Origin: Tetraselmis striata | Lineage: Eukaryota > Chlorophyta > Chlorodendrophyceae > Chlorodendrales > Chlorodendraceae | DNA length: 64,000 nucleotides | Assembly (NCBI GenBank): GCA_006384855.1 | Contig: VCJN01003164.1 | Location: 39,538-103,537 of the forward strand | Direction of reading: 5' to 3' | Shown: piece after piece, positions 31,220-55,312 of the stretch | Position numbering within the stretch: the stretch's first letter is position 1 | Layout of the letters: every line of letters starts with the position of its first letter | Made by a program: the position numbers and the translations under genes | Notes under the pieces: generated by a model | Database searches by the model: none | What the model saw: the letters and a program-made list of their open reading frames with translations, nothing else | Told to the model about the DNA's origin: nothing

Positions 31220-33340
31220 CCTTAATATAACACTGCGGAAATCAACGCCCAGAAGCACATGGGTTTCATCCCGGTCTCGTGCACACCCATCACACAAGAC
31301 CGCCTTCTCCCACGAGAAGTAAAAACCGCCGGTCGACGTCGTGGTACCCATTGCCACCTCCCCGCCGCAGGCATAGCCTGGAATTGCTTGGTCACATGGT
31401 GCCATAACGTGGTCCACCATGATTGCGTCCTTGCCACGGATGCCAGATGTGCCAAATGCGTCCTTGAAAACAACCGGGACGACACCACCCACCTATTCGA
31501 GGTCCAATAGGAAGACTGTCAACTAGCCGAATCCATTATGGATACGGAATCCGGACCGCGCGCACGCCATGCAAGCCATCGCATTCGAACCAGACTCAAA
31601 ACCCCGGAATCCCCCCCCCCCCCCCCCCCGCTCATCCGGCCGCGTGGCAAGACCCCCCCCCCCCCCCCCCGAACACCAAGTGGAAATCCGACTCGCCACC
31701 ATCAATCCAGACCTTGACTCCGTGCCCACGGGGGAATTGTACTTCCGCGTCCGGGATGCACACCAACTATAGCTCCGCAAGCCGGACGGCATAGCCTCGA
31801 CCGCCGAAGGGTCGAACATCTCCACTTTCTCTTTAGACCGGACCGGACAAATAAGATGTTTGCAGAGGAGGTTTATGCGCTCCTGGGCAGAGTGAGCACC
31901 CTTACGACTACCGACGACAATTCCAAACACCAAATCCGAAGAAACAGACGGGCCACGGATGACCGTTGTACACTGGCAATCATGACCGCCCTCCATGCCC
32001 GCACATAGCTTTTCAGCGACCCCCTCAACAAGTTGACCTACACCTCCCAGTATCATAGCCTGCCCCCCGAAGATGTAGTCTTCGGCGCTAGACCCCCGAC
32101 CTGTACTTGTGGGTTGAAATGTCCTCGCCAGCCCCGAATACGACGACAATCATATGCTGAAAGCGGTGCACACGCCCTCCGTAGCATGCACGCTCCGAGG
32201 CACGAATCTAACGCCACAACGCTCATCCTCCCCGAGTGGATAGACGCATCCTACAAGAAAACTCATATGCTCAATCACCCCTACATGCAGAAAATGTGCG
32301 AGCTCCCCGCGGACCTCACCAAATTCCGGCCCCAATACCAACACACCCACACAGTACCGAACAGGGACCTCGGCACCAAAAAGCCGGAGGGAGTGTACTT
32401 GGTGGCTTCCACGCCCTACCTCGCAAACATCAACGTAGCAGAAGCATCAACCAAGCAAGATGACGGCTGCCCTCAGGGTCTTGAACCCCGGCCGCACGCC
32501 GCACTTCCATCTTTAAACCACCCAACGACCAATAGGCTCGGACGCATCAAGAGCCGCAACAACATGCCCATGTCTTCCTTGACTGCCTTGCGACTGGCAG
32601 ATGGCATCCGCCGCACCGGAACTCCGCCCGCTGACGACACCAATCCCGTCCATACAACCCCTAGAACGACAGCACGATCCGAAACGCTTTACATACACCG
32701 ACGGCTCCCATATCCACTGCGGCGGAGTGGTGGGAGCCGGCGCCGGGGTCTACACGCCGGGCAATAAACCCATCGCAGTGGGAGAGGACGCACGTAGACG
32801 AAATTCGCCGCACCATCACAAGAGCCGCGAACTGGCCGCCATATCGGCGGCGCTGGAGTCAGACCGTCCGAAACACATCCTCTCAGATAGCGCCGTCTCC
32901 CTTCATCTAATAGAACGCATGATGTACCGGCCGGTCACCTTACGACGCCACGCTCATAAAATATACTACTCGAACACACAGTACGCCAACCCCGACACCG
33001 AGCGGATTTGGAACTCCGAACCATCCTCCAGAAAGTCAAAGCCCATATTGGGGTCGAAGGCAACGAACAAGCCGACACCACCGTCGGCGAAGTAGCCAAC
33101 GGGGCAATCCTACCTGACACTATCGTAACCGTAGGCGCGACTCCCGAACCAACCGATGACGTGTGGCTGAACCCATGTCAGCAAGGCGCGCCAACCACCA
33201 CCCACCACCCACACCCCCCACAACCTGAAAACCGCCCTCCGGAAACACGCCAACGCTACAGTAGGCTACGACGCCTCCGACGAAACCCTACACTCCCACC
33301 TCATGGACCAGGCGGTGGCCATTGGTGTTGTAAGCGTTAG
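31220..33340 (+). mobile_element. LINE-like retrotransposon, 3' half with RNase H
   Basis: Plus-strand pieces in order: a Cys/His cluster (31259-31510, 'WCHNVVHHDCVLATDARCAK'); a linker containing two C tracts (31612-31671); a segment 'ATTLILPEWIDASYKKTHML' (32033-32767); and an RNase H domain starting 'KRFTYTDGSHIHCGG' (about 32680), with 'SRELAAISAALE', 'HILSDSAVSLHLI' and 'KVKAHIGVEGNEQAD' (to about 33100). The last string is the typical H-x-G...GN-x-x-AD end of a retrotransposon RNase H. Several frame changes separate the pieces, so the copy is dead. The RT itself is not visible upstream, so it is probably 5'-truncated. Confidence 0.6.
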
Positions 33341-33968
33341 GCGAAAGGCTTTAGCGCAGGCAAGGAGAAGGTTTGCAACAAAGGAAATTGTTACATTGTA
33401 CCGGGGTGTACACGGCTTTATACAACTATCGGCTTGGCAGTCGTTCGCATGCATGCATTAGGCTTGGATATGCAATTTAGGCTTGAAGTCATCAGGGAGT
33501 CATCGGGGTGTAATGGCTGACAAAGGCGTGACGTGTGGCAAGCACGCGGCATATGTGTGTGGGGCAGCGTATTTGCATGTAGTAGTTGCGTTAGTATAAG
33601 GAAGTGAGTGGTACGAGTATGACTGCATAGGTGTGCGGGTATAGGTATGCAGGTAGGGTTATGGTGGTAACCCTAACATTCCATCCCGGCCCCCCAAAAA
33701 ATATACCCATGGGATACGGAAGGGAAGCGGGCGGGGTATTCAGCGGACATGGCACGATGATAAGTGTGAGCAAGCATTGCCACAGGGACAAGATTGTGTC
33801 GGGCATAGTCATGGAGCATATCACTACGACTTTTCAGGTTAGCATATGGCCCCCAGGAATCGTGGAATACGGGATGGCAGTATATTGCAAAAGGCCAGCG
33901 GAGTTTATAGGAGTTGGCAGGCGGACTTTAGCAAGCTGACTGCAAAGCAATATGTGTGACGTTGCCTT
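33341..33968 (+). mobile_element. Probable LINE 3' UTR
   Basis: A non-coding stretch follows the RNase H region. Its last ~80 bp (33880-33960, GGAGTTGGCAGGCGGACTTT...GCAATATGTGTGACGT) recur in the same orientation at 44186-44266, which suggests a shared element 3' end. Confidence 0.45.
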
Positions 33969-35075: not shown

Positions 35076-35327
35076 CACTGTGAGATTCAGATGTGACGTA
35101 AATGTGCCATACTGGTGACGAACGACGACTTACGGGGACGATACGGGACGGACGGGGGACGTGGATTTCATACCGAGTAGCGACGACTATCGCGCGCGAC
35201 CTGTAAAGTACTATATGAATTTCTCGTTTCCATAATTTCATCAAATTGATATGCGCACGCGGGCTCGCGTGTCGCGCGCCGACGCTGAGCCCCCGGGCTA
35301 AGTACAGGCGGCTGCACGTACTCGTTG

Positions 35328-35400
35328 CACATCCCTGCATATCCCTGCACATCCGCTGCACATCCCTGCACATACAACGCTGCACATCCCTGCACGCGCA
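35328..35400 (+). repeat. Subterminal TGCACATCC repeats of element L
   Basis: About seven copies of (C)TGCACATCC or close variants. Related clusters occur at 41350-41420, 46085-46160 and 52425-52500 in the two elements. By analogy with TNPA sites these may bind an element-encoded protein (inference). Confidence 0.65.
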
Positions 35401-35559
35401 TGAAGTACGGGGTAGCCTGGCGGTCACCGCCGCTCACCGCTGAACCAAGCGCGGACAGCCGCGCACTAGCATCTGTGCTCCCTGCCGGTGGTGGGCTACA
35501 TCCACCCCAACTCTCACCCCCCACCCCCCCCCCCCCCGCGCGCGCGCGCGGAAGCAGGC

Positions 35560-36021
35560 ATGCCGGGAGAGGGATGGATATCGAGTGTGTCGAAGAATGG
35601 CGTGTACACATGCAAGCACTGCCAGGGCATCGTGACGGGCAGTAGTGAAAGGACGGCGCGAGAGCGGCACTTCCTAAAATTCCCGAACTGTAGCCACTCG
35701 TTGAAGCGTGCGGCTAAGTTGCGCCGCAAGGCCGCCTTAAAACAAGCAGCAGCAGCAGGGGCGGCAGCAGCAGCAACAACAACAGGGGCGGCAACAGGAG
35801 TACCAGCAGCCGTCGGAAACGGCCCGCCGGCGCCGGTCTCGGAGGACGATGTGATGGGCGTGGGGGAGGACCCCGTTGGCGAAGACGGTATGGACATCCA
35901 CGCGCCTGCGTGGCCGCCGGCGGACGTGGAAGCTGCCGATGAGGGCGTGATACGGAAAGGCGATCCCGGCGACTTTTACATGAAGGTCATCGCCAAGAAG
36001 TTCCGGGGAGTATGGCACTAA
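35560..36021 (+). CDS. BED-finger plus Tudor-like protein, element L copy
   Basis: It starts at ATG 35560 ('MPGEGWISSVSKNGVYTCKH') and shows a BED-type zinc finger: C-K-H-C, then 'ARERHFLKFPNCSHS', giving C-x2-C...H...C/H spacing. A basic segment, a Q/A/T-rich simple-sequence stretch (~residues 65-90) and an acidic linker follow, then the start of the Tudor-like region ('GDFYMKVIAKKFRGVWH'). A TAA at 36019 replaces the TAC found in copy R, so the L product would stop there. The homologous frame goes on to about 36170 ('WVLEDYGGATQWRVVFEDGD'). BED fingers are DNA-binding parts of several transposases. No DDE catalytic domain was recognised in this gene. Confidence 0.6.
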   Translation: MPGEGWISSVSKNGVYTCKHCQGIVTGSSERTARERHFLKFPNCSHSLKRAAKLRRKAALKQAAAAGAAAAATTTGAATGVPAAVGNGPPAPVSEDDVMGVGEDPVGEDGMDIHAPAWPPADVEAADEGVIRKGDPGDFYMKVIAKKFRGVWH

Positions 36022-37400
36022 GGCGTGATAACCGGCGTCGTTACCGAGTGGGTGTTGGAGGACTACGGCGGGGCGACCCAGTGGCGGGTTGTTTTCGAGG
36101 ACGGTGACATTGTGGACCTTCTGCGTTCAGAGGTGAGTGGGCCCGGCCTGCGTGCTGGTGGCACCACTCACCTGCGGTTGTATGGAATCACACGCACCCG
36201 CCCGGTCGGCGTGGCAGGTTGTGGAGGCTATGGCGGCTGCCCAGGAGCATCCCCCTGTGGATGCGGAGGTGGCGCCTGCGGGGTATGCAAAGGACCTCCT
36301 CTAGAGGGTGGATGGCGAAGAGTTGCAGGCTGTGCGCACGGGCGCGAGCTGCCTCCTGCTCTCCGGCGACCAGATGCTGAAGCAGATGGGCGTCATCGGC
36401 CAGATAGAGGAGGACTTGGCCAAGTCGGTCCTTGATGGGGATGAGGACGGCGAACTGAGCCCCACTGCCCGGCGTGCGTTCAACACAACCCGGCTGGCGG
36501 AGGCCAAGCAGAACACCGGCTGCCATGGCATGTGCCAGGTGCCTGTGGTCCTGGGCTATGTCATCATGGTCAACCTCTTCCCCCTCGCGCCGTTCCACCT
36601 GTATTTGTTTGGCTTGGGAAGGGACTTCTGGAGGAACTAAGTCACCGTGCTGGGCCACATTGGATTCCGGGCTATGAAGCAGGAAGACCGGCGCTAGGCT
36701 TTAGTCCTGATTCCCAGCCAGCAACTTTGGACGCGGGTTGCGCCCTTCGTTTGCGGTGTCCAAGAAGTCGAAAGGTAACCCCCCCCCCCCCCCCCCGGGC
36801 GTGGGTGTGGGCGTGGGCGTGGGCGTGACGGCATTCCCCTCCATGACTACAGGGCCAGGCAAGGTGACGGTGCAGTCCGGCTGGGTCATGGAGGACTGCT
36901 TGCACCACATGTAAACGCTTTCCCTTCTTACCGCCGGTCCGCTGTTCGAGGAGGCCCGGGTGAAGGCGATCATGACCGAGAAGGAGCTCGCGTCCCCAGC
37001 GGTGGTGCGTTCGGTGTCGCAGCTGGCGGTGCTTGGGCACATGTACAAGCGCCTGCAAGGAGCTGCGTGGTTCGTCACGCGGTGGGGGTTGCAGAATGTG
37101 GTGACGGAGGAGGACGGCCCCGAGCGCAAGGCGCAGGTGGACGCGCGCACCAGGGAGGGGAGGACTCGATACCCAGCGCGACGCCAACGCGCGGCGGCCG
37201 GGGCAGCGCGGCGCCAACGCGCGGCAGCCGGGGCAGCGCGGCGCCAACGCGCCGCGGCCGGGGCAGCGCGGCGCCAACGCGCGGCGGCCGGGGCAGCGCG
37301 GCGCCAACGCGAGTGGGATGGGCGGGGCAGCGGTTGCTACCGAATGAGGCTTAGCATCGTTTGCAGTAGCAACGCAGCCTTTCCGGTTGCATAGTGCGAC
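36022..37400 (+). pseudogene. Downstream coding part of the BED/Tudor-like gene, element L
   Basis: Plus-strand pieces conserved in element R: Tudor-like end (36025-36170); 'GDQMLKQMGVIGQIEEDLAK' to 'LFPLAPFHLYLFGLGRDFWR' (36308-36640); 'GWVMEDCLHHM' (about 36880); and 'EARVKAIMTEKELASPAVVR' running into the 30-bp minisatellite (to 37320). It contains a C tract (36780-36797) and several stops, some of which copy R lacks. The middle part suggests a membrane-like or buried helix. The family is unknown. Confidence 0.45.
37172..37320 (+). repeat. 30-bp coding minisatellite, about 5 copies (element L)
   Basis: Unit GCGCCAACGCGCGGCGGCCG plus GGGCAGCGCG, encoding a repeated decapeptide of the RQRAAAGAAR type. 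The array ends in the variant CGAGTGGGATGGGCGGGGCA. The homologous array in R has about 29 units. Confidence 0.9.
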
Positions 37401-37656
37401 ACCGCCTGGATGTAACCCAGCAGTACGCGCAAAGTGCAAGTGTTACACGTCCGTGTGCCCCACCCAATGACATTGCGCCCGACCTCACTGACGGCATGTC
37501 TCGCTCTCCATCATCTATTCCTGGGCCGTCCGTGCATGCGTGCGCAACCCGGCGGCAGCAGGCGCCGGACTCGGCGTGTGCCGGCGGCAGAGCTGCAAAG
37601 CCATGGACACGGTACGGGATGCCAAGTCTGGCTAATCAACTGCCGAGGCTGGCGGC

Positions 37657-38230
37657 TTAACCCCCATGTCCGGCGGCTGAGGGACGGAAAGTGCGTAGAA
37701 GTTGATCGCCAAAGCCGGCACTTAAGCCTGGCTGTGCTAGGTTCCTATTAAGCAATGGCGGTTTGTGCAAAGTAATTCGTAGGGGTGGACCATGCAGCGC
37801 AGGTAGGGGGCGGTATAAATGAGGACGGGCACATACACTGCTCCACGAAACGACACTGTCGCACGTGTAGTTGGATAGACCCCCCCCCCCCCCCCCCCCC
37901 CCCCCGGGTCGGCCCGCCGACCCGCCACGGCTTGTAATATATGGCATGCATCGCCGGGGTATGTGTGAGTGGTTGCCCCGCCGCCACACCCCCCCCCCCC
38001 CCCATTTACACTTGTGCACTCATTAAGTTTGGGCTGGTTTCGGAGCAGTACATGTACGTATATATATACATACAATGCAACGTAGGACGCGCGCGGAAAG
38101 AGGCAGGGCTGGCGGAGTGCATTGGCGGTGCGTAGAGTAGCGCGTTGGTGAGATTCGGGGTGCATCGGACGCCGGATGCCCATCCACCCGGCGTAAAAGA
38201 CGCGTAATATTCACACTATATTCACACATA
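37657..38230. other. Element L non-coding spacer with two C tracts
   Basis: It matches 47300-47880 of element R inverted. Poly-C tracts lie at 37879-37906 and about 37989-38003. The equivalent R tracts are at 47634-47656 and 47509-47532. Confidence 0.75.
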
Positions 38231-39260
38231 AATGTGTGAAAACCGGACATTCCGTGCCGAATGGATGGGAATACGGTGTCCGATACAGCCAATACCCTAG
38301 CAACACGCTGTTCTATGCACCGCCAATGCACTCCGCCAGCACCGCCTCATTCTCCGTCGATTTCGAAAATGCCTTCACATTATCCACCGCGAATTGCAAT
38401 TTCCGCCGTGTAATGTTGTCACGATGTGCGCACACAACAACACTTACTACCGGTTCCCACGCGGATGGAGGCGGGGCTGGCGGAGTGCATTGGCGGTGCG
38501 TAGACTAGCGTGCTGCAAATAATTGGGGTGCATCGGACGCCGGATGCCCATGCATCCACCCGGCGTAAAAGACATGTGGGCCGGTTTCGGAGCAGCACAT
38601 GTACGTATGTATGTATAAATATATACAATGCAACGTAGGACGCGCGCGGAAACAGGCGGGGCTGGCGGAGTGCATTGGCGGTGCATAGACTAGCGTGTTG
38701 GTGAGATTCGGGGTGCGTCGGACGCCGGATGCCCATCCACCCGGCGTAAAAGACGCGTAATATTCACACTATATTCACACACAAATGTGTGAAAACCGGA
38801 CATTCCGTGCCGGATGGATGCGAATACGGCGTCCGATGCAGCCAATACCCTAGCAACACGCTGTTCTATGCACCGCCAATGCACTCCGCCAGCACCGCCT
38901 CATTCTCCGTCGATTTCGAAAATGCCTTCACATTATCCACCGCTAATTGCAATTCCCGCCGTGTAATGTTGTCACGATGTGCGCACACAACAACACTTAC
39001 TACCGGTTCCCACGCGGATGGAGGCGGGGCTGGCGGAGTGCATTGGCGGTGCGTAGACTAGCGTGCTGCAAATAATTGGGGTGCATCGGACGCCGGATGC
39101 CCATGCATCCACCCGGCGTAAAAGATGCGTAATATTCACACTATATTAACACACAAATGTGTGAAAACCGGACATTCCGTGCCGGATGGATGGGAATACG
39201 GCGTCCGATGCAGCCAAAATCCCAGCAACACGCTATTCTATGCACCGCCAATGCACTCCG
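38231..39260. repeat. ~370-bp tandem repeats of element L
   Basis: TTCTATGCACCGCCAATGCACTCCGCC occurs at about 38313, 38866 and 39237; the last two are ~371 bp apart. The first interval is longer because of an extra ~180-bp partial unit around 38510-38700. The units contain GAAAACCGGACATTCCGTGCCG and the motif GTTGTCACGATGTGCGCACA. Short frames in them are repetitive and not genes. Confidence 0.85.
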
Positions 39261-39703
39261 CCCGCAACCCCCGCCTCATTCCCAGTTGTACGTGCTTGTG
39301 CACGCACGGAATGCTTGCACTGCTCCGAAACCACTGTCACATACCCCGCTCATTGGGTACCGATTGCGACGCATGCACGGCTGGATATTTGTTTACATAT
39401 ACCCCGGGGGGGGGGGGGGGGGGGGGGGGGGTCGCAGCGTCCCGCTACTCACCCTGCATTGGATTAGGGGCGATGATTGCAACCAAGACGAGGAGGCGCG
39501 CATGTACTACTCCGGAACCACGCGATGTGCCCGGTGACCTCCATATCAAGCACGTCCACCGATGCAAGTAATAAGGACAGCAGGAACCCCTCCCCCCCCC
39601 CCCCCCACCGCAAAGTGGAGGAAGTGTAGGAGTACAACCGGAGCATGACGTGATCCATTGTCGCTTACTTACAAGCACGGGCGGTGCTGCCAGACCCGAC
39701 CGT

Positions 39704-41199
39704 CTACGGCGGGATGGAGGCGGCAGCGGCAGCAAAAGGAGCCGCAGCCTCAGCAGCAAGCCGCAGCTCCTTCACGCTAGCATGGATGCTGGCGTAGTCC
39801 TCGTCACTGTACAAATGCTTTAGCAACACAGCATGATCCCCAAAGTGGGCCACACACTGCGCCGCCAACTCGTGATTGCGTTTCTCCGCAACATCACTGC
39901 GGGGGGTGATGTGTGGGTAGAGTGCCTCGTTGTAGGCTGCCAAGAACGGCGTGTATTGGGTAGGGTCGTCCGCACGGCCGCAGCTAGGCAGTCCCAGAAG
40001 GTGCCCCTGCCCGTACAAGCGGACATTGCCACGCCCGTGACATTTGGGACAGGGGTTGCCGCTGGGCAGCTCAAATGGGGCGCCCACGGGCCCGCGGTGC
40101 GTCGTGTCCGACCCAAACATGTACCCATGATATTGTTTCGTGTAGGGCCTGTCCTCCTCGGGGACACCCATGCCACGCTCCAAGTCCTCCAGGGGCTGCA
40201 TCAAGTTCTTGTGGCTCATGATGAAGTCGGTAGCTCCCGGATCTGTCTCCGCCAGCGTCCTCTCCTTGAGGCGGTGATTCTCGTGGCCCTTTTCATGTCA
40301 ACACATGGATGGCACTCAGTCCCCGCCCCCGCCCCCGCTCCCGCCACCGTCCTGGGGGGGGGGGGGGGGGGGAGGGGGGGGGCGCACCGGGTACCGAATG
40401 TGCTTCACGGCATCTGTGAAGCTCACTTCTGGCCCGCGGTACACCTCAGTGGGGCGGCAGTGGCACGTGCATGCAATGATGGCCTGCATATTTGGAGCCT
40501 GCCCATCAACGTGGGTGATCTGAGCGGAGGCATCCGCCGGAGTGAACAGCAACGCGATCACCGGCCACGACCAAAACCTTGGTGCTAGCTCGCCGGCCTT
40601 CTCGGCACCAGACACGAAAGCGCGCCGCAATTCCAGTAAAGGCGGCAAACAAGGCCTTCCTGCAAGGCACACGCTCAGAATAAGCGATGCACGAGTCAGG
40701 GGTTGAAGGGGGGCGGGGGGGGGGGGGGAGGGGGGGGCACCTCTTCATCTGCCTCTGCTTTTTGCCGACCCAAGTCTCTGGCGCACTCCTTGCCCAATGC
40801 CACAGCTTCCACGGGTCGACTTTGCCGTCCTTTTCTCCGTCATACGGCTTCACCTGCGTGTGGTCTGCAACGTCCAGGTCTTCCGGGGGCATGATGACCT
40901 GTTGGTGTCAGGGGCACACACACTATGCTCAACACCATGCTCACAACTACGGCGTTTGTACTCCCTTCCGCTCCGCCGCGTCCTTCGCTGAAACCAACCA
41001 TGTCTTGTGCGATGTGCGACAACAAACCCACCTCTAGCAGCCCGGGAGCGTTTAGATCCGGGTATGGCGTCGGGACCTCATTAGGGAACCTTCTCAGCAA
41101 GGCATGCGCGGCGTCTTGTCCGAGAAGCCTCCACAGTTCTAGGTGTACGGAGTCATAGGTACCACCATCCTGTAGCCACCGCTCGAGGTAGGCTTGCAA
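39704..41199 (-). CDS. Unknown element L gene (~500 residues, frame-broken), absent from R
   Basis: Minus-strand pieces in order: 'LQAYLERWLQDGGTYDSVHL' to 'GLLSHIAQDMVGFSEG' (41199-40960); 'HTQVKPYDGEKDGKVDPWKL' (40892-40740); 'SAQITHVDGQAPNMQAIIAC' and 'VSFTDAVKHIRYP' (40540-40390); and 'MSHKNLMQPLEDLERGMGVP' with a CPKCHGRGNV motif and 'LLKHLYSDEDYASIHASVKE' (40219-39704). The pieces are conservative in composition and separated by G tracts (40357-40381, 40712-40736). At least three frame changes or introns would be needed. I recognise no family. By position it is the best candidate for the element's transposase, but no DDE triad could be assigned. The whole region is missing from R, where the flanks join near 46197. 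Confidence 0.5.
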
Positions 41200-41573
41200 C
41201 CTCGTCGTCGCATCTTCCTCAGCGAGGAGCTCGGGGATTTAACATTGTTTGACATGGCGGCAGGTTTAATGGAGGGAGGGGGGGGGGGTGCCCACGCATG
41301 GGGATTTGCGGCGCTGGGTGGAGCGGCGGACAGTCACCCGCTCCGCCCCTACATGTCGTGCACATCTTCGTGCACATCGGTGCACACCGCTGCTGCACAC
41401 CGCTGCGCACATCCGCGCACATTCGTCGCGCACATATACACGCGCGCCCTACCGCATATATTATCCCGGATTCACTCGGTGAAACCGCGTATTCATTACG
41501 CCGTGCTACTTCAACAATAAACATTGCGAAATTACGCCGACACAATGCCGCACCGGCTAGCTCTTGACAATAC

Positions 41574-42356
41574 GTGCATATAAATAGTAGTGGCGCGCTG
41601 CTCCTCGCCTCCGCTGTGTCGTTGACTGCTGCGGAAGGCGGTCGTCGACTGGGTGTTAGTTTCTCCACCTCGGCCGCCCCCCCCCCCCCCCCCCCTTCAC
41701 CGCTCACAGCGCAATGGCAGACCTCGTCTCCCGGGCAAAAGTGGGCGGCGGGCCTTGTTGTCTCGCGTGTCCGCGCCGCCGGCATCGAGGAGGACGAGAA
41801 AGACATGAGGAAACGCGTGACAAGGTGGGCACGCAACAAAGCACTCCACCCTCCACATAAGCACGCACCCACACTCGTGGCTAACTTGTGCCGCGCGCAG
41901 GTTCGTCCGGGAGCGCCGTAAGGCCCACCTTAACGCCAAAGCTTCCACAGTGCCAGCGGCGCAACTCGTGGTGGCCGAGGAGGCCGCATCCTCAGCCGCT
42001 TAAGGCGAAACGATTGTGGCTTGTTGTGGGCGTCTGGGCACCGGGGGCGTCCCGACGCCAAGGCAAGGAAGCTCATGGCGGCGTCGTCGACGGCACAGCC
42101 TCCCGGGGTGGTGAAGACACTGACGGCCGCCGTTCTCCCTCCGGACGCGCCGCTGCCCCGCCCACCCCTAACTGAGAAGGAGCTGTGCTGGATGAACGCC
42201 GCCGACAAGAGGCAGTCGGACGCCGACAAGAAGCGGAAGAGGCCAGTGAAGAAGCGCCGAGGTAAGAAACTGACGGTCGCGGAGTCGGAGGCGGAGGCGG
42301 AGGCAGCGAGGTCGTCGAAGCGGCGGGTCCCCCGGGCACGCAAGAACAAGCAGTAG
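41574..42356 (+). CDS. Small basic nuclear-type protein of element L
   Basis: Frames 41574-41921 ('MHINSSGALLLASAVSLTAA' ... 'KDMRKRVTRWARNKALHPPH') and 42021-42356 end in a strongly basic tail ('KKRKRPVKKRRGKKLTVAES' then 'SSKRRVPRARKNKQ') that looks like a bipartite nuclear signal. A C tract at 41681-41698 gives a poly-Pro or shifted stretch. The copy in R (45241-45982, minus) preserves both parts, so this is a true element gene rather than chance. It could be the element's TNPA-like DNA-binding partner (inference from position and charge). Confidence 0.5.
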
Positions 42357-43041
42357 CCCCCCTCCGCGCAGGGGCCGGGGGGTGAGGGGGGGGGGGGGGG
42401 GGGGGCGGGGGGCCCGACCCCCCCCCCCCCCCCCCCCGGCCACATTCCCCGATGGCAGCTGTCGCGAATATTGTAATTCAATCATTCTTCGGCAAACCGC
42501 TGCCTGCCCCCCCCCCCCCCCCTCCCCTCCCCCCGCTCGCGAATATTTATGTAACGTGAGCACTCTTTGGCGAAACATGGCAGCCAAACCGCCCATTTGA
42601 TGACCTTTGATCGGACGGCTGGCATGCCCGTTCAGCAGTACTAGCTATAATGTACACAAAATTCCCCACTGTTACCAAATACGTACGGCTGCGATTTGCG
42701 CTCCCATGTACTAATAGTCGTAGTTATCCACAGGACGACTCGTCATCGCGCCCGGGTTCGTACTAGATACCCGGTACCGGCTTAATAAATATATCGCGTA
42801 CTACCCGGTACTGCACGGACAAACTCGTACCTTATACGTCAATGCCATGTAACGCGTCACCGTGCTAGTACGACTACCACAATGATCACAAAAAAGGTTT
42901 ATCGCCCGCCGGCAATACCGCCGGATGTAATCGGACGTAACTGGATGGACGTGCCGCCACCAGCAGCAGCCTTCACGGATGAATAATAGTCGCTAGTAGT
43001 AGTGCTTCGTCACCCGTATGTCACATCTCAATCTCACAGTG

Positions 43042-43650
43042 AGACCAACCGTCCAGCAGCTCACACTAGTAAGCCGCTGAGCGAGCCAATGCAGCGACAA
43101 CCCAGCCAGCTGACTCAAGAACACCGCCCACCACTAACCCTGTGCCCGGTGCAGCTCACACACCAACACACACCCGGAACTCACCACACACCCGAGCACA
43201 CAGTCTAACTCCCACCACCACCACAAGCAACACCCAACCTATTCCATGTTGGAGGGCATCGCAGCCCCCGCCAATCATATTAGCCGGCTCAGCAGTGCAT
43301 AAATACTGAGCACCACATAGCTATTCCGGTCAGCCCCCTTCCCCCATCACACCTTGGTAGCTGCAGGCGGGACGCTTCGGCTGCCTAAGCTTGCCTGCTG
43401 AGCTCTGGGTGGGTTAGGCCCGACTTAGGTAGGGACAACATGGGGGCGCTGTTGTCTTAGCTATAGCCCACTAAAAGGATGAGGGGCTAGGAAACATTGG
43501 ATGACCGGTAGCTTGAGCTGTGATAACACTTCGTGTTCCCCACTGTGGTTAGAGATAGCATGTCTTGAGAACAACTCAGTCTGAGCGAGCGGATGCAACA
43601 GACTAGACGTTGTGTCTAATTTCAATTTCAATTTCAATTTTGGTGTCACT
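43042..43650 (+). mobile_element. Probable remainder of the interrupted gag-like retroelement (fossil)
   Basis: It opens with Pro/Thr/His-rich coding-like sequence, then a 3' region homologous to 12190-12600 (inverted there), ending in a run of AATTTC repeats (43618-43640). The order matches the uninterrupted copy at 12-14 kb, which supports insertion of element L at 35075/43042. Confidence 0.5.
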
Positions 43651-44500
43651 TGCTAGAGGATGATGATACCTAGCGTTAGATGGAGCGCTGCCCTAGTGGA
43701 GTATTAGCTTAGTATTAGTAGGTACCAGAGCCTACTAGAACCATCTAGAAAGCTATAGCATTTGTTGTAGCAATAGTTGATAATATTATATCACTGTGCT
43801 GCGGACAGACGAAGGTGCCAGGAACCTGTCTGTAGTTAGTTGTGTGCTACTAAAATAGCGACGGGCCGCGGTTAGGACCGCACACGTCGATTGTAGTATT
43901 AGTCTAGTAGTTACACGCAGCACAAGTGGCGGGAATTGGAATCAATACGCAGCGCACGGAATGGCGGAAACCAGCGACTGTAAATAGGCCAGCAAAACCA
44001 CCGCCGGGCCAGTCACTCAGGTTACCGGCTTCCGGTACTGTAAGAATCCCTTTTCCCAAATCTCTGCTCATTATTCCTGGCCGTGTGGAATAACGGTCCA
44101 ATGAGCCCTCGACTCAGCTCCTGCCTTAGGACTACCTATGGCTAGACGACTATTCGGCCTAAGTCATGAGGGGGCTGTAACATTGCCATAGCAAAAGGCA
44201 ATCGGAGTTGGCAGGAGTTGGCATGCGGAGTTTGACAAGCTGACTGCGGAGCAATATGTGTGACGTACGTTGACATCGAGACTTTATTGGGGCGAGTTTA
44301 ACGGTTGGCATATGCTGCGTATGCTCAATACTTAGGTATTGGCGGGTTCTAACTTTCAGTTATGTATTCCTGCATCTGGTAGTTTGGCGATGTCAATGTA
44401 ATCCACAAAGTCCACGTGTTGGTATAACGAGTTAGCAAGTGTGAGCAGGTTCGTGCCGTAGCGTGCGTCAAGCGGAGCGCATGTAGTTGCGGATTGGTAG
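43651..44500. other. Spacer before element R, with an ~80-bp repeat
   Basis: Non-coding. 44186-44266 repeats 33880-33960 (LINE 3' end type). Element R starts at 44501. Confidence 0.5.
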
Positions 44501-45099
44501 CACTGTGAGATTCAGATGTGACATACAGGTGACGAAGCGCTACTACTAGCGACTATTATTTATCCGTGAAGGCTGCTGCTGGTGGCGGCACGTCCATCCA
44601 GTTACGTGCGAGTACATCCGGCGTTATTGCCGGCGGGCGATAAATCCTTTTTGTCATCATTGAGGAAGTCGTACCAGCCCGGTGGAGCGTTACATGGCAC
44701 TGACGTACAAGGTACAAGGTTGTCCGTGTAGTACCGGGTAGTACGCGATATATTTATTACGCCGGTACCGGGTATCGAGTACCCGGTACCCGGTACCCGG
44801 GCACGATGGAGAGTGGTCCTGTGGATAACTACGACTATATTAGTACATGGGAGCGCAAATCTCAGCCGTACTATTCGGCCAAAGTGGGGATTTTTGTGTA
44901 CATTATAGCTAGTACTGCTGAACGGGCCTGCCAGCCGTCCGATCAAAGGTCATCAGATGGGCGGTTTGGCTGCCATGTTTTGCCAAAGAGTGCTCACGTT
45001 ACATAAATATTCGCGAGGGGGAGGGCGGGGGCAGGCAGCGGTTTGCCGAAGAATGTTTGAATTACAATATTCGCGACAGCTGCCATCGGGGGATGTGGC

Positions 45100-45132
<33 letters not shown>

Positions 45133-45240
45133 GCGGGGGCGGGGGGACCACGCCCGCCCCGCCCCCCCCCGCCCCCCCTCGCCGCCAGCCGCTCCCGCCT
45201 GGGGGGGGGGGGGGGAGGGGGGGGGGTAAGGGGGCGGGGG

Positions 45241-45982
45241 CTACTGCTTGTTCTTGTTCTTGCGTGCCCGCGGGACCCTCCGCTTCGACGATCTCGCTGC
45301 CTCCGCCTCCGCCTCCGCCTGCGCCTCCGACTCCGCCTCCGACTCCGCGACCGTCAGTTTCTTACCTCGGCGTTTCTTCACTGGCCTCTTCCGCTTCTTG
45401 TCATCCGTCAGTGTCTTCACCACCCCGGGAGGCTGTGCCGTCGACGACGCCGCCATGAGCTTCCTTACCTTCGCGTCGGGACGCCCCCTGTGCCCAGACA
45501 CCCACAACAAGCCACAATCGTTTCGCCTTTAAGCGGCTGAGGATGCGGCCTCCTCGGCCACCATGAGTTGCGCCGCTGGCACTGTGGAAGCCTTGGCGTT
45601 GAGGTGGGCCTTAACGGCGCTCCCGGACGAACCTGCGCGCGGCACAAGTTAGCCACGAGTGGGTGCGTGCTAATGTGGAGGATGGAGTGTTTTGTTGCGC
45701 GCCCACCTTGTCACGCGTTTCCTCATGTCTTTCTCGTCCTCCTCGATGCCGGCGGCGCGGACACGCGAGACAACAAGGCTCGCCGCCCACGTTTGCCCGG
45801 GGGGGCGAGGTCGGCCATGGCGCTGTGAGCGGTGAAGGGGGGGGGGGGGGGGGCGGGGGGGGGGGGGGGGGGGGGGGGGCGGCCGAGGTGGAGAAACTAA
45901 CACCCAGTCGACGACCGCCTTCCGCAGCAGTCAACGACACATCGGAGGCGAGGAGCAGCGCGCCACTACTATTTATATGCAC
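45241..45982 (-). CDS. Small basic protein gene, element R copy
   Basis: Minus-strand counterpart of 41574-42356: 'MHINSSGALLLASDVSLTAA' at the start (45982) and the tail 'DDKKRKRPVKKRRGKKLTVA' ... 'SSKRRVPRARKNKNKQ' ending at 45241. A G-rich stretch (45837-45879, one C) corresponds to the C tract of L and is much longer here. A segment between 'VKTL' and 'DKKRKRP' present in L is absent. Confidence 0.5.
45837..45879. repeat. Long poly-G tract in element R
   Basis: 42 G and one C (at 45854). The equivalent site in element L (41681-41698) is a C run of about 18, the same tract in opposite orientation. Confidence 0.95.
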
Positions 45983-46260
45983 GTATTGTCAAGAGCTAGT
46001 CGGTGCGGCATTGTGTCGGTGTAATTTCGCAATGTTTATTGTTGAAGTAGCACGGCGTAATGGATACGGCGAGTGAATCCGGGATAATGTGTGCGACGAA
46101 TGTGCGCGCGCAGCGGTGTGCGGCGGTGTGCGGCGGTGTGCGGCGGTGTGCACCGATGTTAATTTAGTGTGAATATTATATCGGCCGTAGACGATCAGGT
46201 CTGCCAGCACCGCCCGTGCTTGTAAATAAGCGACAATGGATCTAGTCTCCCGCTAGTCTG

Positions 46261-47370
46261 TGCACCGCCAGTGCACTCCGCAAGCCTCGCCTCCATCCGC
46301 GTCGGAACCGGTAGTAAGTGTTGTTGTGTGCGCACATCGTGACAACATTACACGGTGGCAATTGCAATTATTAGCGGTGGATAATGTGAAGGCGTTTTCG
46401 AAATCGACAAAGAATGAGGCGGTGCTGGCGGAGTGCATTGGCGGTGCATAGAATAGCGTGTCCCTGGGGTTTTGGCTGCATCGGACGCCGTATTCCCACC
46501 CATCCGGCACGGAATGTCCGGTTTTTACACATTTGTGTGTTAATAAAGTGTGAATATTACGCGTCTTTTACGCCGGGTGGATGGGCATCCGGCGTCCGAT
46601 GCACCCCAATTATTTGCAGCACGCTACTCTACGCACCCCCAACGCACTCCGCAAGCCTCGCCTCCATCCGCGTCGGAACCGGTAGTAAGTGTTGTTGTGT
46701 GCGCACATCGTGACAACATATTACACGGTGGCAATTGCAATTAGCGGTGGATAATGTGAAGGCGTTTTCGAAATCGACAGAGAATGAGGCGGTGCTGGCG
46801 GAGTGCATTGGCGGTGCATAGAATAGCGTGTCCCTGGGGTTTTGGCTGCATCGGACGCCGTATTCCCACCCATCCGGCACGGAATGTCCGGTTTTTACAC
46901 ATTTGTGTGTTAATAAAGTGTGAATATTACGCGTCTTTTACGCCGGGTGGATGGGCATCCGGCGTCCGATGCACCCCAATTATTTGCAGCACGCTACTCT
47001 ACGCACCCCCAACGCACTCCGCAAGCCTCGCCTCCATCCGCGTCGGAACCGGTAGTAAGTGTTGTTGTGTGCGCACATCGTGACAACATATTACACGGTG
47101 GCAATTGCAATTAGCGGTGGATAATGTGAAGGCGTTTTCGAAATCGACAGAGAATGAGGCGGTGCTGGCGGAGTGCATTGGCGGTGCATAGAATAGCGTG
47201 TCCCTGGGGTTTTGGCTGCATCGGACGCCGTATTCCCACCCATCCGGCACGGTATGTCCGGTTTTCACACATTTGCGTGTGAATATATATAGTGTGAATA
47301 TTACGTACGCGTCTTTTACGCTGGGTGGATGGGCATCCGGCGTCCGATGCACCCCGAATCTCACCAACAC
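46261..47370. repeat. Three ~370-bp tandem repeats of element R
   Basis: Units start at 46261, 46631 and 47001, exactly 370 bp apart, and are nearly identical. Each has GCCTCCATCCGCGTCGGAACC near its start and CCCATCCGGCACGGAATGTCC near its end. Related to the repeats at 38231-39260 in element L. Confidence 0.95.
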
Positions 47371-48135
47371 GCTACTCTACGCACCCCCAACGCACTCCGC
47401 CAGCCCCGCCTCTTTCCGCGCAGGTCCTACGTTCCATTGTATGTATATACATACGTACATGTACTGCTCCGAAACCAGCCCAAACTTAATGAGTGCACAA
47501 GTGTAAATGGGGGGGGGGGGGGGGGGGGGGGGCTTGGGGGGGGGGGTGTGTGGCGGCGGGGCATCCACTCACACATACCCCGGCGATGCATGACAGATAT
47601 TACATGCCGTGGCGGGTCGGCGGGCCGACCCGGCGGGGGGGGGGGGGGGGGGGGGCGTCTATTCAACTACACGTGCGACAGTGTCGTTTCGTGGAGCAGT
47701 ATATGTGCCCGGCCTCATTTATACCGCCCCCTACCTGCGCTGCATGTTCCACCCCTACGAATTACTTAGCACAAACCGCCATTACTTAATAGGAACCTAG
47801 CACAGCCAGGCTTATATGCCCGCTTTGCCGATCAACTTCTACGCACTTTCCGTCCCTTAACCGCCGGACATGGGGGTTAAGCCGCCAGCCTCGGCAGTTG
47901 CTTAGCCAAACTTGGCATCCCGTACCGTGTCCATGGCTTCGCAGCTCTGCCGCCGGCACACGCCGAGTCCGGCGCTTGCTGCCGCGGGGTTGCGCACGCA
48001 TGCACGCACGGTAATACGCCGCCGACGCCGCCACGCTTATTTCCACCACCTTCGCCAGCCGCAGCTTCGCACGCCTTTCCGCCGACATACGAAACGCACG
48101 AATCCCCCCCCCCCCCCCCCCCCCGTCCCCGCGTC

Positions 48136-49026
48136 ATGTATATTATATTCGAGGCGACTATGCGGGGCGCAGCACACGCCGCGGCTTGGGTCGGCGGAGC
48201 GGCAGGCGGCGGGAGCCTTATGGCCGGGCAGTATTCACACCCACACAGGCACCGCCGCTCACCTCCGACGCGGATGAACCGCCTCCCAAAGGAAACATGC
48301 CGGTTGGTGGTAATCCCAACAGGCGTGGGGTGCCGGCGCCGGTACTGGTGCGACGGAGCTGTCGCGTCAGGAACCGCACCGCATGTGGAGCAACACATGG
48401 CGGTGCCGGCCCCACCTATGTCTAGGGCCACCTCCTCACAACACCCCGCCACGACGGCGTCGGCCACCGCCGACGGCGCCGTTGCGGGGGGGGACGCCCT
48501 GCCAGGCGACGATGATGCGCCTGGTGCGCCGCGTCAGGAGGCGGAGGAGGTCGTGGTCGAGGCGACTGATCGGGCTGAGGGGGTTGTCGAGGCGAGCGAG
48601 GCTGCGCTCGCGCCACCCGCCCCGCAGCCACCTGCGGGACATGCCGACTTGCTCGTCGCCATGTTGACCGGAGCACTACGAGCAGTGGCGGGAGGCGGCC
48701 ACATGCACTATCATGTGCGTGTCCTGGCCGGACGCCCGTCATGCGTGGACTGCGGCCAACGGACGGACTGGGAGTGTTGCTGCGACGGCACCCCGGCTTT
48801 GTGCGGCCCCAAGTACCCATGCATGGCGACCCATCAGCGGGCAGTCCTCTGCCCGACCACGGCCACGGTGAGGGCGGAGTTCCGCCATGTCAGGGACGCG
48901 TTCCACGACGCGACTCGCGCCGCCGTGTGTGAGGCTTCCGAGAAGGCACGCGCGGCTGGTAGGGTGCGCAGGGTGAGGCGGCGGACGGCCCAGGAGCTGA
49001 AGGAGAGCGAGACATGCCGTCAGTGA
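48136..49026 (+). CDS. Cysteine-rich zinc-ribbon protein of element R
   Basis: One uninterrupted frame of 296 residues from ATG 48136. The N-terminal two-thirds is Ala/Pro/Glu-rich with no domain. Near the C-terminus 'GRPSCVDCGQRTDWECCCDG' followed by LCGP...C...H gives a C-x2-C...C-x-C...C...C...H ribbon like the C-terminal zinc ribbons of piggyBac-type and related transposases. A basic tail follows ('GRVRRVRRRTAQELKESETC'). It lies on the opposite strand to the BED gene. The region is deleted in element L. No catalytic domain is present, so it is an accessory or detached C-terminal module. Confidence 0.55.
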   Translation: MYIIFEATMRGAAHAAAWVGGAAGGGSLMAGQYSHPHRHRRSPPTRMNRLPKETCRLVVIPTGVGCRRRYWCDGAVASGTAPHVEQHMAVPAPPMSRATSSQHPATTASATADGAVAGGDALPGDDDAPGAPRQEAEEVVVEATDRAEGVVEASEAALAPPAPQPPAGHADLLVAMLTGALRAVAGGGHMHYHVRVLAGRPSCVDCGQRTDWECCCDGTPALCGPKYPCMATHQRAVLCPTTATVRAEFRHVRDAFHDATRAAVCEASEKARAAGRVRRVRRRTAQELKESETCRQ

Positions 49027-49204
49027 GGTCGGGCGCAATGTCATTGGGTGGGGCACACGGACGTGTAACACTTGCACTTTGCGCGTACTGCTGGGTTACA
49101 TCCAAGCGGTGTCACACTATGCAACCGGAAAGGCTGCGTTGCTACTGCAAACGATGCTACGCCTCACTCGGTAGCAACCGCTGCCCCGCCCATCCCACTC
49201 GGGA

Positions 49205-49790
49205 TGCTGAGAGCAGCTAAAGGGCACCGGGGGCGGGGCAAGAGGGAGCAGGGCCAATGATTGTGGAAGAGCGGGGACCCGCTTGCATGCCATCGTATTA
49301 TATCTTGCACAATATCTGTTGCTGCACTCATATCTCACATCACTAGCTTAGCTATAGTGATTCCCCCCCCCCCCCCCCCCCCCCCGCACCGCGGACGCAC
49401 AAGCCTGGGTATACGCATCAACTGCCCGCCGGGATGAGAAACTGGTATTGGTAGTGTGTCTGTGGGGTGGAGGGGGGGCAAAAGAGCTGCCAATTGCTGC
49501 CAAGCTGGTGCGTTACATTGGGGCAGGCGCTGGGCAGACAATTGGGGCTCGCTTCAGAGCATTGTCTAGTGCCTATGCGGCTCTGCCGCCTCCGCCGCAT
49601 GCAGACTCTCCGGGCTCACCAGCACCGCCACCTCAGTCATGCGGCCCTGCATCCCGCAGCCCGCCGCCGTCAGCCAGATCAGAGGTATCCAGAAGCCAGT
49701 GCTGGGGTTGTTGCGGCATGACCGCATAGTTTTCAGCGCCTGCCGTCCACAACTTGTAATGCATCCCTTTCCGCCGATTCCGCTGTATGC
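49205..49790 (-). other. Element R segment missing from L
   Basis: It lies between the zinc-ribbon side and the minisatellite and includes a C tract (49363-49386). The minus-strand frame continuing from the minisatellite reads 'NRRKGMHYKLWTAGAENYAV' and 'PQQPQHWLLDTSDLADGG'. Copies of CGAGTGGGATGGGCGGGGCA border it, so L could have lost it by recombination between repeats. Confidence 0.55.
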
Positions 49791-49796
49791 GCTGTC

Positions 49797-50668
49797 TTGG
49801 CGCCGCGCTGCCCCGGCCGCCGCGCCTTGGCGCCGCGCTGCCCCGGCCGCCGCGCCTTGGCGCCGCGCTGCCCCGGCCGCCGCGCCTTGGCGCCGCGCTG
49901 CCCCGGCCGCCGCGCCTTGGCGCCGCGCTGCCCCGCCCATCCCACTCGCGTTGGCGCCGCGCTGCCCCGGCCGCCGCGCCTTGGCGCCGCGCTGCCCCGG
50001 CCGCCGCGCCTTGGCGCCGCGCTGCCCCGGCCGCCGCGCCTTGGCGCCGCGCTGCCCCGCCCATCCCACTCGCGTTGGCGCCGCGCTGCCCCGGCCGCCG
50101 CGCCTTGGCGCCGCGCTGCCCCGTCCGCCGCGCCTTGGCGCCGCGCTGCCCCGCCCATCCCACTCGCGTTGGCGCCGCGCTGCCCCGGCCGCCGCGCCTT
50201 GGCGCCGCGCTGCCCCGGCCGCCGCGCCTTGGCGCCGCGCTGCCCCGGCCGCCGCGCCTTGGCGCCGCGCTGCCCCGGCCGCCGCGCCTTGGCGCCGCGC
50301 TGCCCCGGCCGCCGCGCCTTGGCGCCGCGCTGCCCCGGCCCCGGCCGCGCCTTGGCGCCGCGCTGCCCCGGCCGCCGCGCCTTGGCGCCGCGCTGCCCCG
50401 GCCGCCGCGCCTTGGCGCCGCGCTGCCCCGGCCGCCGCGCCTTGGCGCCGCGCTGCCCCGGCCGCCGCGCCTTGGCCGCCGCGCTGCCCCGGCCGCCGCG
50501 CCTTGGCGCCGCGCTGCCCCGGCCGCCGCGCCTTGGCGCCGCGCTGCCCCGGCCGCCGCGCCTTGGCGCCGCGCTGCCCCGGCCGCCGCGCCTTGGCGCC
50601 GCGCTGCCCCGGCCGCCGCGCCTTGGCGCCGCGCTGCCCCGGCCGCCGCGCCTTGGCGCCGCGCTGGG
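49797..50668. repeat. 30-bp minisatellite, about 29 copies (element R)
   Basis: Unit CTTGGCGCCGCGCTGCCCCG plus GCCGCCGCGC, repeated almost perfectly. Three interspersed variant units carry CCCATCCCACTCGCGTTGG (about 49936, 50061, 50154), and there are length variants near 50340 and 50475. The unit length is a multiple of three and the unit has no stop in several frames, so very long frames cross it on both strands; these are artefacts apart from the minus-strand frame that continues the BED gene. Confidence 0.95.
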
Positions 50669-51377
50669 TATCGAGTCCTCCCCTCCCTAGTGAGCGCGTC
50701 CACCTGCGCCTTGCGCTCGGGGCCGTCCTCCTCCGTCACCACATTCTGCAACCCCCACCGCGTGACGAACCACGCAGCTCCTTGCATGCGCTTGTACATG
50801 TGCCCAAGCACCGCCTGGGGACGCGAAGCTCCTTCTCGGTCATGATCGCCTTCACCCGGGCCTCCTCGAGGAGCGGACCGGCGTTAAGAATGGAAAACGT
50901 TTCCATGTGGTGCAAGCAGTCCTCCATGACCCAGCCGGGCTGCACCGTCACCTTGCCTGACCCTGCAGTCATGGAGGGGAATGCCGTCACGCCCACGCCC
51001 ACGCCCACGCCCGGGGGGGGGGGGGGGGGGGAGGGGTTTACCTTTCGATTCTTGGACACTGCAAACGAAGGGCGCAACCCGCGTTCAAAGTTGCTGGGTA
51101 TCGGGACTAAAGCCTGGCGCCGGTCTTCCTGCTTCATAGCTCGGAATCCAATGTGGCCCTGCACGGTGACAAATTTCCTCCAGAAGTCCCTTCCCAAGCC
51201 AAAAAAAAACAGGTGGAACGGCGCGAGGGGGAAGAGGTTGACCATGCTGACATAGCCCCGGACCACATGCACATGGCACACGCCATGGCAGCCAGTGTTC
51301 TGCTTGGCCTCCGCCAGCCGGGTTGTGTTGACCGCACGCCGGGCAAGGTGCGTGATTCACTGGACAAGTCATCGCCT

Positions 51378-52135
51378 TCATGGACGGTTACCAAGCGAGC
51401 CTCCCCGTCCGCATCCACAGGGGGGTGCTCCTGGGCAGCCGCCATAGCCTCCACAACCTGCCACGCCGACCGGGCGGGTGCGTGTGATTCCATACAACCG
51501 CAGTTGAGTGGTGCCACCAGCACGCAGGCCGGGCCCACTCACCTCTGAACGCAGAAGGCCCACAATGCCCCCGTCCTCGAAAACAGCGCGCCACTGGGTC
51601 GCCCCGCCGTAGTCCTCCAACACCCACTCGGTAACGACGCCGGTTATCACGCCGTAGTGCCATACCCCCCGGAACTTCTTGGCGATGACCTTCATGTAGA
51701 AGTCGCCGGAATCGCCTTTCCATATCACGCCCTCATCGCGGGTTCCACGCCCGCCGGCGGCCACGCAGGCGCGTCGATGTCCATACCGTCTTCGCCAACG
51801 GGGTCCTCCCCCACGCCCATCACATCGTCCACCTTCGAGCCGCCGTCGTCCGAGACCGGCGCCGGCGGGCCGTTTCCGACGGCTGCAGCTACTCCTGCTG
51901 CCGCCCCTGTTGTTGTTGCTGCTGCTGCTGCCGCCCCTGCTGCTGCTGCTTGTGATAAGGCGGCCTTGCGGCGCAACTTAGCCGCACGCTTCAACGAGTG
52001 GCTACAGTTCGGGAATTTTAGGAAGTGCCGCTCTCGCGCCATCTTATCACAAGTGCCCGTCACGTTGCCCCGGCAGTGCTTGCATGAGTACACGCCATCC
52101 TTCGACACACTCGCTATCCATCCCTTTGCCGGCAT
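51378..52135 (-). CDS. BED-finger plus Tudor-like protein, element R copy
   Basis: It starts at 52135 ('MPAKGWIASVSKDGVYSCKH') with C-x2-C and 'RERHFLKFPNCSHSLKRAAK' forming a BED-type finger, then an Ala/Gln-rich spacer and an acidic linker. After one frame change near 51740 it continues 'GDSGDFYMKVIAKKFRGVWH', 'YGVITGVVTEWVLEDYGGAT' and 'RAVFEDGGIVGLLRSEVSGP', the Tudor-like part, which lacks the stop seen in L. Tudor-like folds bind methylated residues, so targeting to chromatin is possible (inference). Homologous downstream coding continues to about 50690 and into the minisatellite. Confidence 0.6.
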
Positions 52136-52745
52136 GCCTGCTGCCGCGCGCGGGGGGCGGGGGGGGGGGGGGGGGGGGGTTGAGAGTTGGGGTGGATGTA
52201 ACCCACCACCGGCAGGCAACACAGATGCGAGTGCGCGGCTGTCCGCGCTTGATTCAACGGTGAGCGGCGGTGACCGTGAGGCGACCCCATACTTCATGCG
52301 CGTGCTGGGGCGTTACACAATCATCAGCAGTTAGGGCGGCTGCATTAAAACGCGCACCTACGAACACCACCTACCGCCTACCACCTACCGTACCACCTAC
52401 ATCCGCCCACACCTCCGCCCGTCGTGCCGCACATCGCGGCACACCGCGGGGTCAGCGGTCAGCGATGTGCGGTCAGCGATGTGCGGCGATGTGCAATGAG
52501 TGCGTACATCCGCCTGTACTTAGCCCGGGTGCTCCGCGTCGGCGGGCGACACGCGAGCCCGCGTGCGCATATCAATTTGATGAAATTATGGAAACGAGAA
52601 ATTCATATAGTACTTTACAGGTCGCGCGCGATAGTCGTCGCTACTGGGTATGAAATCCACGTCCCTCGTCCGTCCCGTATCGTCCCCGTATGTCGTCGTT
52701 CGTCACCAGTAGGGCACATTTACGTCACATCTGAATCTCACAGTG

Positions 52746-54040: not shown

Positions 54041-55312
54041 CTGGTCGTCTCGTGTTACTCCTCCGTCGCAGTCGTTGTAGAGGGCCTTGATGATTGTCCT
54101 TTTGGTCCTTTTGGTGATTTCCTGATATCGCCTCGTGCTGCTAGCTCATGTAATTAGTAATCTTTTTTGGTTGCAGGGAGAGCGTCAGGAGAATGCACCG
54201 AAAGTACTGGGGAGGGAAAAAGCCTACGTTTAAGCAGAACACATAATAGTACTGTAGTCGCTAGCGACTAGTGTGGCGGAGCGTCCCGGCGGCCGGGTGG
54301 CGGAGCGGGGCGGGCTGAAGAAAATCTGGCACATACTCACAGGCCCTGGCTATCCGTCAGCAGAACCCCATCAACTACAGTACCGCCCTTCGGCTCCACT
54401 CCCCGGCAGGGCAAGGCCGCCAGAGGTGAGCTTTATACCCTGCAACTTAAGCGCCCCATTCGACGACCTCCCTTCTGCCCTGCTCCCCCCCTCTTGGCCC
54501 CAGTTTCCGGCTTTAATTCGAGGATCCGCACCGCCGCCGCGCGGCAGCACTCCCAGCCACAAGGTCCCGCAACCGCGCGCAGGTCGCATCAACCTGGCCG
54601 CGCCATCGGAGCCCAACTGGTCCATAGCCGCCGCGCAGTCTGCTTCTCCTCTGTCATGCTCAATGTTTCGTATGTCGTAGATATGTGCAGCCGCGTGCCG
54701 GCCTCGCTCCCTCTGCGGCTCAGCTCCGTCAGGGCGCCGGATGTTATCTCGGGAGTATCTCCGACTACTGGTACCCTTATGTTATTGTCTTTGCGGGGGC
54801 CGTGTCCAACCGCCACCCCTCCCTTCCCTCCCCTCTCCCCCCTCCCCCCGACCTCCCCACGGGAGCGTCAGTGTAGCTTCGTCACCCGCCCAGAATCTCC
54901 GATCCTTGTGCACAGAGCGCTGCCGCGGTCCCCGCGGGAGACATCGCTGGGCCAGATCTGGGCGGGCGCCGCGGCGGTGCCGTCTCGTCCGATTGTCGCG
55001 TCAATGTCAGTACTTTATGCAGTACTGTTACCCAGCACCTTGCCTCTCTTCCATGGCGAGCCGCCTCGTGTCTTGGCCCTGTGCGGTCGGGTGCAGTGGG
55101 TCGCGCCGGGATGCAAGCCTTATGGGGATCCTCATAGCGGTGGGTTTGGAACCCATGGGTCCCGGGTCGCTGCTTTGAGGAGCGGTGGTTCTGGTGCTGG
55201 CGGTAGGGGAGAGGGGGCGAGCTCTCTACAGCCGTGTTGGTGGGCCTAACCAGAGCGGTGCTGTGCAGACTTTACTCCCCTTTCCGCTTCTCGATCCAAC
55301 CTTTCGCCCGCC
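54041..55312. other. Upstream region of the DECD-box helicase gene
   Basis: 54112-54160 repeats the GGTGATTTCCTGATATCGCC...GCTAGCTCATGTAATTA piece of the 9845 repeat (inverted). 54818-54862 is a long C/T-rich run. 54270-55310 is GC-rich with no convincing gene and probably contains the promoter and 5' UTR. A possible 3' splice site (TGTGCAG) at 55268 suggests a 5'-UTR intron. Confidence 0.5.

Follow-up and report, generated by a model that had tools for sequence, protein, structure and literature searches.

The CACTA/EnSpm transposons and their kin, which together form the CMCT clade, have termini of the form CA...TG, or CAC...GTG in the case of EnSpm, and give a target-site duplication of 2-5 bp; their DDE transposase carries a C(2)C and an H(3-4)H motif between the second D and the last E (PMC12730594). 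Internal loss is illustrated by the deleted Ds copies of the maize Ac element (Ds-del), which are non-autonomous, derive from a longer autonomous element and have kept their ends (PMC3260210). Two large elements from Tetraselmis striata, here called L and R, can be compared with both systems. They are located in a stretch of 64,000 nucleotides of contig VCJN01003164.1, which was analysed as a whole and is referred to below as the window (58.7% G+C).

The similarity to the CMCT clade lies in two characters. The termini of L and R, CACTG...CAGTG, fit the CAC...GTG form, and a short segment of their main gene (gene A) containing HLYLFGLGRDFW resembles another gene in the window, itself transposase-like, whose translation has a CxxC motif, as judged by eye. 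Unlike in the CMCT clade, however, no target-site duplication of 2-5 bp was seen for L and R, and no transposase model of Pfam matches gene A at E values up to 10; the C(2)C and H(3-4)H motifs were not located in the fragmentary gene A. Together, the termini and the short, statistically modest match to the second transposase-like gene suggest a CACTA/EnSpm-like (CMCT) family, and probably one that works like a CMCT element. With Ds-del, L and R share the non-autonomous state, internal deletion and the keeping of both ends, but Ds-del belongs to the hAT superfamily and has 11-bp ends, whereas L and R both keep long interiors and only two copies have been seen.

Element L (35076-43041, plus strand, 7966 bp) and element R (44501-52745, minus strand, 8245 bp) were delimited by their terminal repeats and by the inverted alignment of the one to the other. 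The earlier note had described them as inverted copies with CACTG-type ends, 1.46 kb apart, and the termini, BLAST and a global alignment all bear this out. In BLAST, the identity of L to inverted R is 89-96% over the main colinear blocks. In the global alignment, 472 of the 5639 aligned columns are mismatches (91.6% identity, K2P 0.089); this alignment overruns the 3' ends by about 10 bp and, given that a block of 192 columns in it is aligned poorly (62.5%), the true identity is probably slightly higher. Homology stops at the termini, apart from a brief agreement of the 3' flanks (ACCAA) that is taken for chance. As in TIR (class II) transposons, there are terminal inverted repeats at both ends and more than one copy with sharp ends (n = 2). 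Very probably, a single family of cut-and-paste (TIR) DNA transposons is represented here by two separate copies, L and R, which are old and non-autonomous, lie inverted 1.46 kb apart and differ in their deletions. Large inverted repeats are generally hard to assemble, and two haplotypes or a chimeric inversion could in principle have ended up in one contig. Copies that differ at about 8% of their sites, with different deletions and different flanks, are unlike a duplicated or flipped piece, however, which makes an assembly artefact highly improbable.

The termini of L read CACTGTGAGATT...AATCTCACAGTG (at 35076 and 43041), and those of R likewise (at 44501 and 52745). All four ends conform to CACTGTGAGATT[C/G]AGATGTGAC, a repeat of 22 bp with one variable position. 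When the whole window was scanned for this end, with the one C/G-degenerate position and at most 6 mismatches allowed, six sites were found, of which four are the element ends (0 mismatches each) and the remaining two have 6 mismatches. The two sides of each element differ in layout. At the 5' end of L (35076-35122, plus strand), the 22-bp box CACTGTGAGATTCAGATGTGAC is followed by an 11-bp spacer and a second box, ATACTGGTGACGAA, and the 5' end of R (52699-52745, minus strand) is laid out in the same manner; the second box at the 5' ends is ATACnGGTGACGAA, with one change in R. At the 3' end of L (43006-43041, minus strand), the 22-bp box, with one change, is directly abutted by the second box, and the same layout is found at the 3' end of R (44501-44536, plus strand when read inward). 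The 11-bp spacer is thus confined to the 5' ends, although a gapped alignment of the R ends put the gap at a slightly different place. Since the asymmetry is common to L and R by descent, it counts as a single observation; it is the sole odd feature of the two elements. Subterminal 7-mers occurring at least three times are also in excess (12 in L versus 2.0, and 11 in R versus 1.9, in 300 Markov resamples), but the commonest of them stem from tandem repeats and the excess is therefore not counted as evidence.

RAG pairs signals with 12- and 23-bp spacers, and the likeness of the end asymmetry to such 12/23 signals is a lead only. By this analogy, the family might be an undescribed multi-gene lineage near CACTA, Transib and RAG, with ends differing by about one helical turn and an enzyme that would pair unlike ends; we consider this unlikely. 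Among the papers listed by literature searches there was no described CACTG-ended relative, although one may well have been published.

The end types also bear on the suggestion in the earlier note that the 17.7-kb near-palindrome as a whole could be mobile through its outer ends. In favour of this, the terminal repeats at the outer ends are intact over their 22 bp and inverted relative to each other. Both outer ends have the 11-bp spacer and hence the 5' type, however, and both inner ends are of the 3' type, so that the pair would be unsuitable if the enzyme needs one end of each type. Moreover, the outer flanks have no full match at lengths of 2-10 bp (best partial matches 2/3 and 3/5), and about 8% of sites differ between the copies, which carry independent deletions. 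With no shared outer duplication and two outer ends of the same type, the suggestion is not upheld, and a composite mobile element is most improbable. The L/R pair would be without special joint function.

No target-site duplication was found for L or R either: at lengths of 2-10 bp, no flanks match in full, whether paired within a copy, swapped between copies or taken as a composite. The best partial match is that between the 5' flank of R (AGACCGT) and the 3' flank of L (AGACCAA), with agreement at 5 of 7 positions. As cut-and-paste insertion should leave a duplication, its absence counts against the TIR reading, and a pairwise divergence of about 9% would not readily explain the loss of both duplications. 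The duplications could have been hidden by recombination between L and R that inverted the spacer and exchanged the flanks. The inverted repeats are close together, the duplications are missing and the 5/7 match, the best of all pairings tried, is one between swapped flanks; but the other swapped pair (L 5' and R 3') agrees at 3 of 7 positions, equal to two own-copy pairs, and at lengths of 2-6 bp the agreement is limited to 2 positions at most in every pairing. Such an inversion seems unlikely.

The left flank of L aligns, up to a few bases from the end of the element, to a diverged retroelement-like copy (score 47, as opposed to 27.5 for the best of 200 shuffles), which indicates that L sits inside older repeat DNA. 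The diverged copies of this retroelement-like repeat lie at 12197-14203 (minus strand) and at 34272-34936/43250-43634, and L is inside the second. On the right side of L, the alignment to the retroelement copy resumes only at 43250, leaving 208 bp (43042-43249) unaligned, and about 590 bp of the copy are without counterpart at the L site. The site is therefore not a clean insertion, and a local rearrangement beside the 3' end of L may have removed a duplication. For the pieces beside R, no alignment to the matching stretch of the retroelement copy exceeded that of shuffles. Other repeats occur in the vicinity: 44188-44266, in the L-R spacer, and 33884-33962, upstream of L, form a 79-bp repeat with 85% identity, and 54044-54159, further out from R, matches 9937-9826 at 81%.

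According to the earlier note, L has kept a minus-strand gene that R lacks, and R a zinc-ribbon gene that L lacks. BLAST, the global alignment and the junctions agree with this. A segment of 1.66 kb (39711-41373) is present in L only, and one of 0.97 kb (about 48012-48981), comprising most of the open reading frame at 48136-49026, in R only. There are losses beyond those first described: L is without 1.33 kb corresponding to R 49204-50532, much of which consists of a 30-bp repeat array, and R is without 108 + 27 bp of gene A. In all, 5639 alignment columns are common to L and R, 2337 are found in L only and 2616 in R only. Their union of about 10.6 kb, which includes some tandem-repeat length, and the junctions support the earlier proposal of a longer parent of about 10 kb.

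In R, the 1.66-kb segment of L (39711-41373) is replaced by 24 bp (46160-46183). Of these, 14 bp are an exact match to R 47290-47303, a length that none of 1000 shuffles reached (longest 13), and the junction sequence also matches L 39130-39148 at 18 of 19 positions. A 12-mer core of the junction has three further occurrences in each copy. The junction sequence sits 381 bp from the last repeat 12-mer, the units themselves being spaced 374 and 370 bp, and it could be the remnant of a further repeat unit instead of copied filler; it would mark a deletion either way. In L, the junction at 37526-37532 corresponds to R 48012-48981 and shows a 7-bp overlap, CCGTCCG/CCGTGCG, that is identical at 6 of 7 positions on one side. 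A second junction in L (37307-37312), at the edge of the 30-bp array, corresponds to R 49204-50532, and this 1.33-kb loss joins related 30-bp repeat units.

Could the copy-specific segments be acquired genes that were inserted, and not remnants of a common interior? Each of them contains open reading frames and is missing from the other copy, the 7-bp near-repeat at the L junction can be read as a weak duplication, and what is found at the R junction may be left over from a repeat. No exact flanking duplication was seen around either segment, however, and R has 24 bp of repeat-like sequence at its junction. Furthermore, the open reading frame present in R terminates in sequence retained by L, into which it runs for 45 nt, as expected of a deletion in L. 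Both readings of the R junction, copied filler and repeat remnant, favour deletions, and insertion is an improbable explanation.

The earlier note had also held the tandem repeats to be common to the two elements. They are indeed present in both, but to an unequal extent: the 30-bp array has 28.5 copies in R (49796-50666, plus strand) and 4.6 copies in L (37174-37311). The 370-bp tandem repeat of R (46251-47420, plus strand) comprises 3.1 copies, and a related long repeat occurs in L at about 38030-39281, where the 12-mer that marks the units is spaced 553 and 372 bp apart, as against the period of 370 bp in R.

Gene A is tentatively placed at 35557-37175 (plus strand) in L and at 50739-52297 (minus strand) in R, and is interrupted in both. 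It comprises a Cys/His segment, an acidic segment and the segment with HLYLFGLGRDFW. In L, the frame is closed by stops at 36019, 36638 and 36695, all of them positions with sense codons in R; the stop at 36302 would be a fourth, should the second exon reach upstream of it. In R, the missing 108 + 27 bp are located near 51361-51392, where the frame shifts, and the halves of the second exon on either side of the 108-bp gap are in different frames. A stop of R at 36728 in the L-anchored frame, despite an open reading frame in R at 50739-51356, indicates that an indel separates the frames there. Between L and R, pS is 0.039 and pN 0.054 for 35557-36180, and 0.066 and 0.104 for 36308-36745. This second segment was computed in three frames, of which those starting at 36306 (pS 0.086, pN 0.101) and 36307 (0.130 and 0.080) hold more stops than that at 36308. 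A third-position scan of L and R (47 windows, both strands, many frames) was not informative. In view of the alternative frame at 36307 and the scattered third-position windows, the coding frames are tentative, and with frames this uncertain the substitutions in gene A give no clear sign of purifying selection. With the main gene broken in both and no clear purifying selection, the two copies look like decayed relics.

The match of gene A to a second gene came from a blastp comparison of 321 ORFs of L and R with the 1072 ORFs found elsewhere in the window (at least 30 aa). Among the best 40 of 81 matches (E up to 0.5), the best was that of gene A 36305-36637 to the minus-strand ORF at 3086-3415, which extends over 36 aa at 36% and has an E value of 0.004. 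This value is per single query, and chance alone should produce about one match of this quality in 321 queries. For this chosen pair, none of 2000 shuffles was as good, with the L and R readings alike. The window contains, at 2000-6060 on the minus strand, a broken large transposase-like gene with a HASLLGVVKDFW segment that resembles gene A of L and R. A CxxC motif is seen by eye in its translation, and it has no Pfam match. Beyond the DFW segment, the CxxC parts of the two genes are no more alike than by chance (1145 of 2000 shuffles as good) and the acidic parts are weakly alike (22 of 2000).

The other genes of the elements are less well defined. Gene B is found in L only (39704-41238, minus strand), with tentative exons at 41238-41032, 40898-40741, 40655-40388 and 40297-39707, a tentative start codon and C-rich introns between some of the exons. 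In a search of solved structures with a gene B exon the best E value was 0.29, and the structure predicted for 39707-40297 had a mean pLDDT of 40.7, too low to use. The Cys-rich ("zinc-ribbon") ORF at 48136-49026 (plus strand, 296 aa) is whole in R only; its last 15 codons, including the stop, are within sequence retained in L. A possible exon of a gene C, with a basic tail, is open in both copies, at 41943-42353 (plus strand) in L and at 45244-45528 (minus strand) in R, where a 96-bp stretch found in L is missing. Here, pS (0.088) exceeds pN (0.026), on 7 and 6 differences and with three frames tested, which is suggestive only.

Among 10 ORFs (E up to 1) and 10 proteins (E up to 10) compared with Pfam, none matched above the curated cut-off. 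The matches to CHAD, Ribosomal_S5 and PRIMA1 (E up to 1) and to CHAD and FXR_C1 (E up to 10) were below threshold, and they were set aside as weak or low-complexity. The same applies to Fin for the N-terminal segment of gene A (E 0.21, sub-threshold) and to DUF2011 on the basic tail of gene C (E 4.8e-4, 20.6 bits against a cut-off of 29.4). Rfam at gathering thresholds and a tRNA scan gave nothing. Scans of the viral_contigs collection, a poor place to look for this host, confirmed no relative of the gene A segments of R and L, the gene B exon, the Cys-rich ORF, the terminal repeat or the ORF at 3086-3415.

Elsewhere in the window, Pfam matches mark host-like genes: a MYB gene (19498-20091, E 1e-15), a DEAD-box helicase (55886-56752, E 2.1e-17) and an ALMT gene (60010-60438, E 9.1e-13, with ALMT/FUSC matches). 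A reverse transcriptase fragment, RVT_1, lies at 7401-7964 on the minus strand (E 1.1e-4, below the curated cut-off). By eye, the ORF at 32583-33092 (plus strand) presumably contains an RNase H segment, and we take the ORFs at 21829-24523 (minus strand) to carry ABC ATPase motifs; the latter are probably a host ABC-F gene with introns of C or G runs.

The parent of L and R would have been an element of about 10 kb with gene A, probably the transposase gene, on one strand, perhaps followed downstream by gene C, and with gene B and the Cys-rich ORF on the other. Each copy would then have lost different parts of its interior through faulty DNA repair; internal losses are expected where the gap left after transposition is repaired incompletely. 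In R, the deletion was probably patched with a short copied filler from slipped repair synthesis; in L, one loss probably occurred by microhomology joining and another by recombination between 30-bp repeats. For any movement after these deletions, the enzymes would have come from an intact relative. The complementary decay of L and R is of an ordinary kind for transposons.

L and R are a small, readable case of decay in large DNA transposons, in which the copies become non-autonomous, complement each other and bear the scars of repair. As no curated Pfam family recognised their genes, the family is possibly worth an entry of its own once intact copies are seen. If the 11-bp asymmetry beside the CACTGTG terminus is true of intact relatives as well, it would bear on the origin of unlike-end pairing in the group to which Transib and RAG1 belong.
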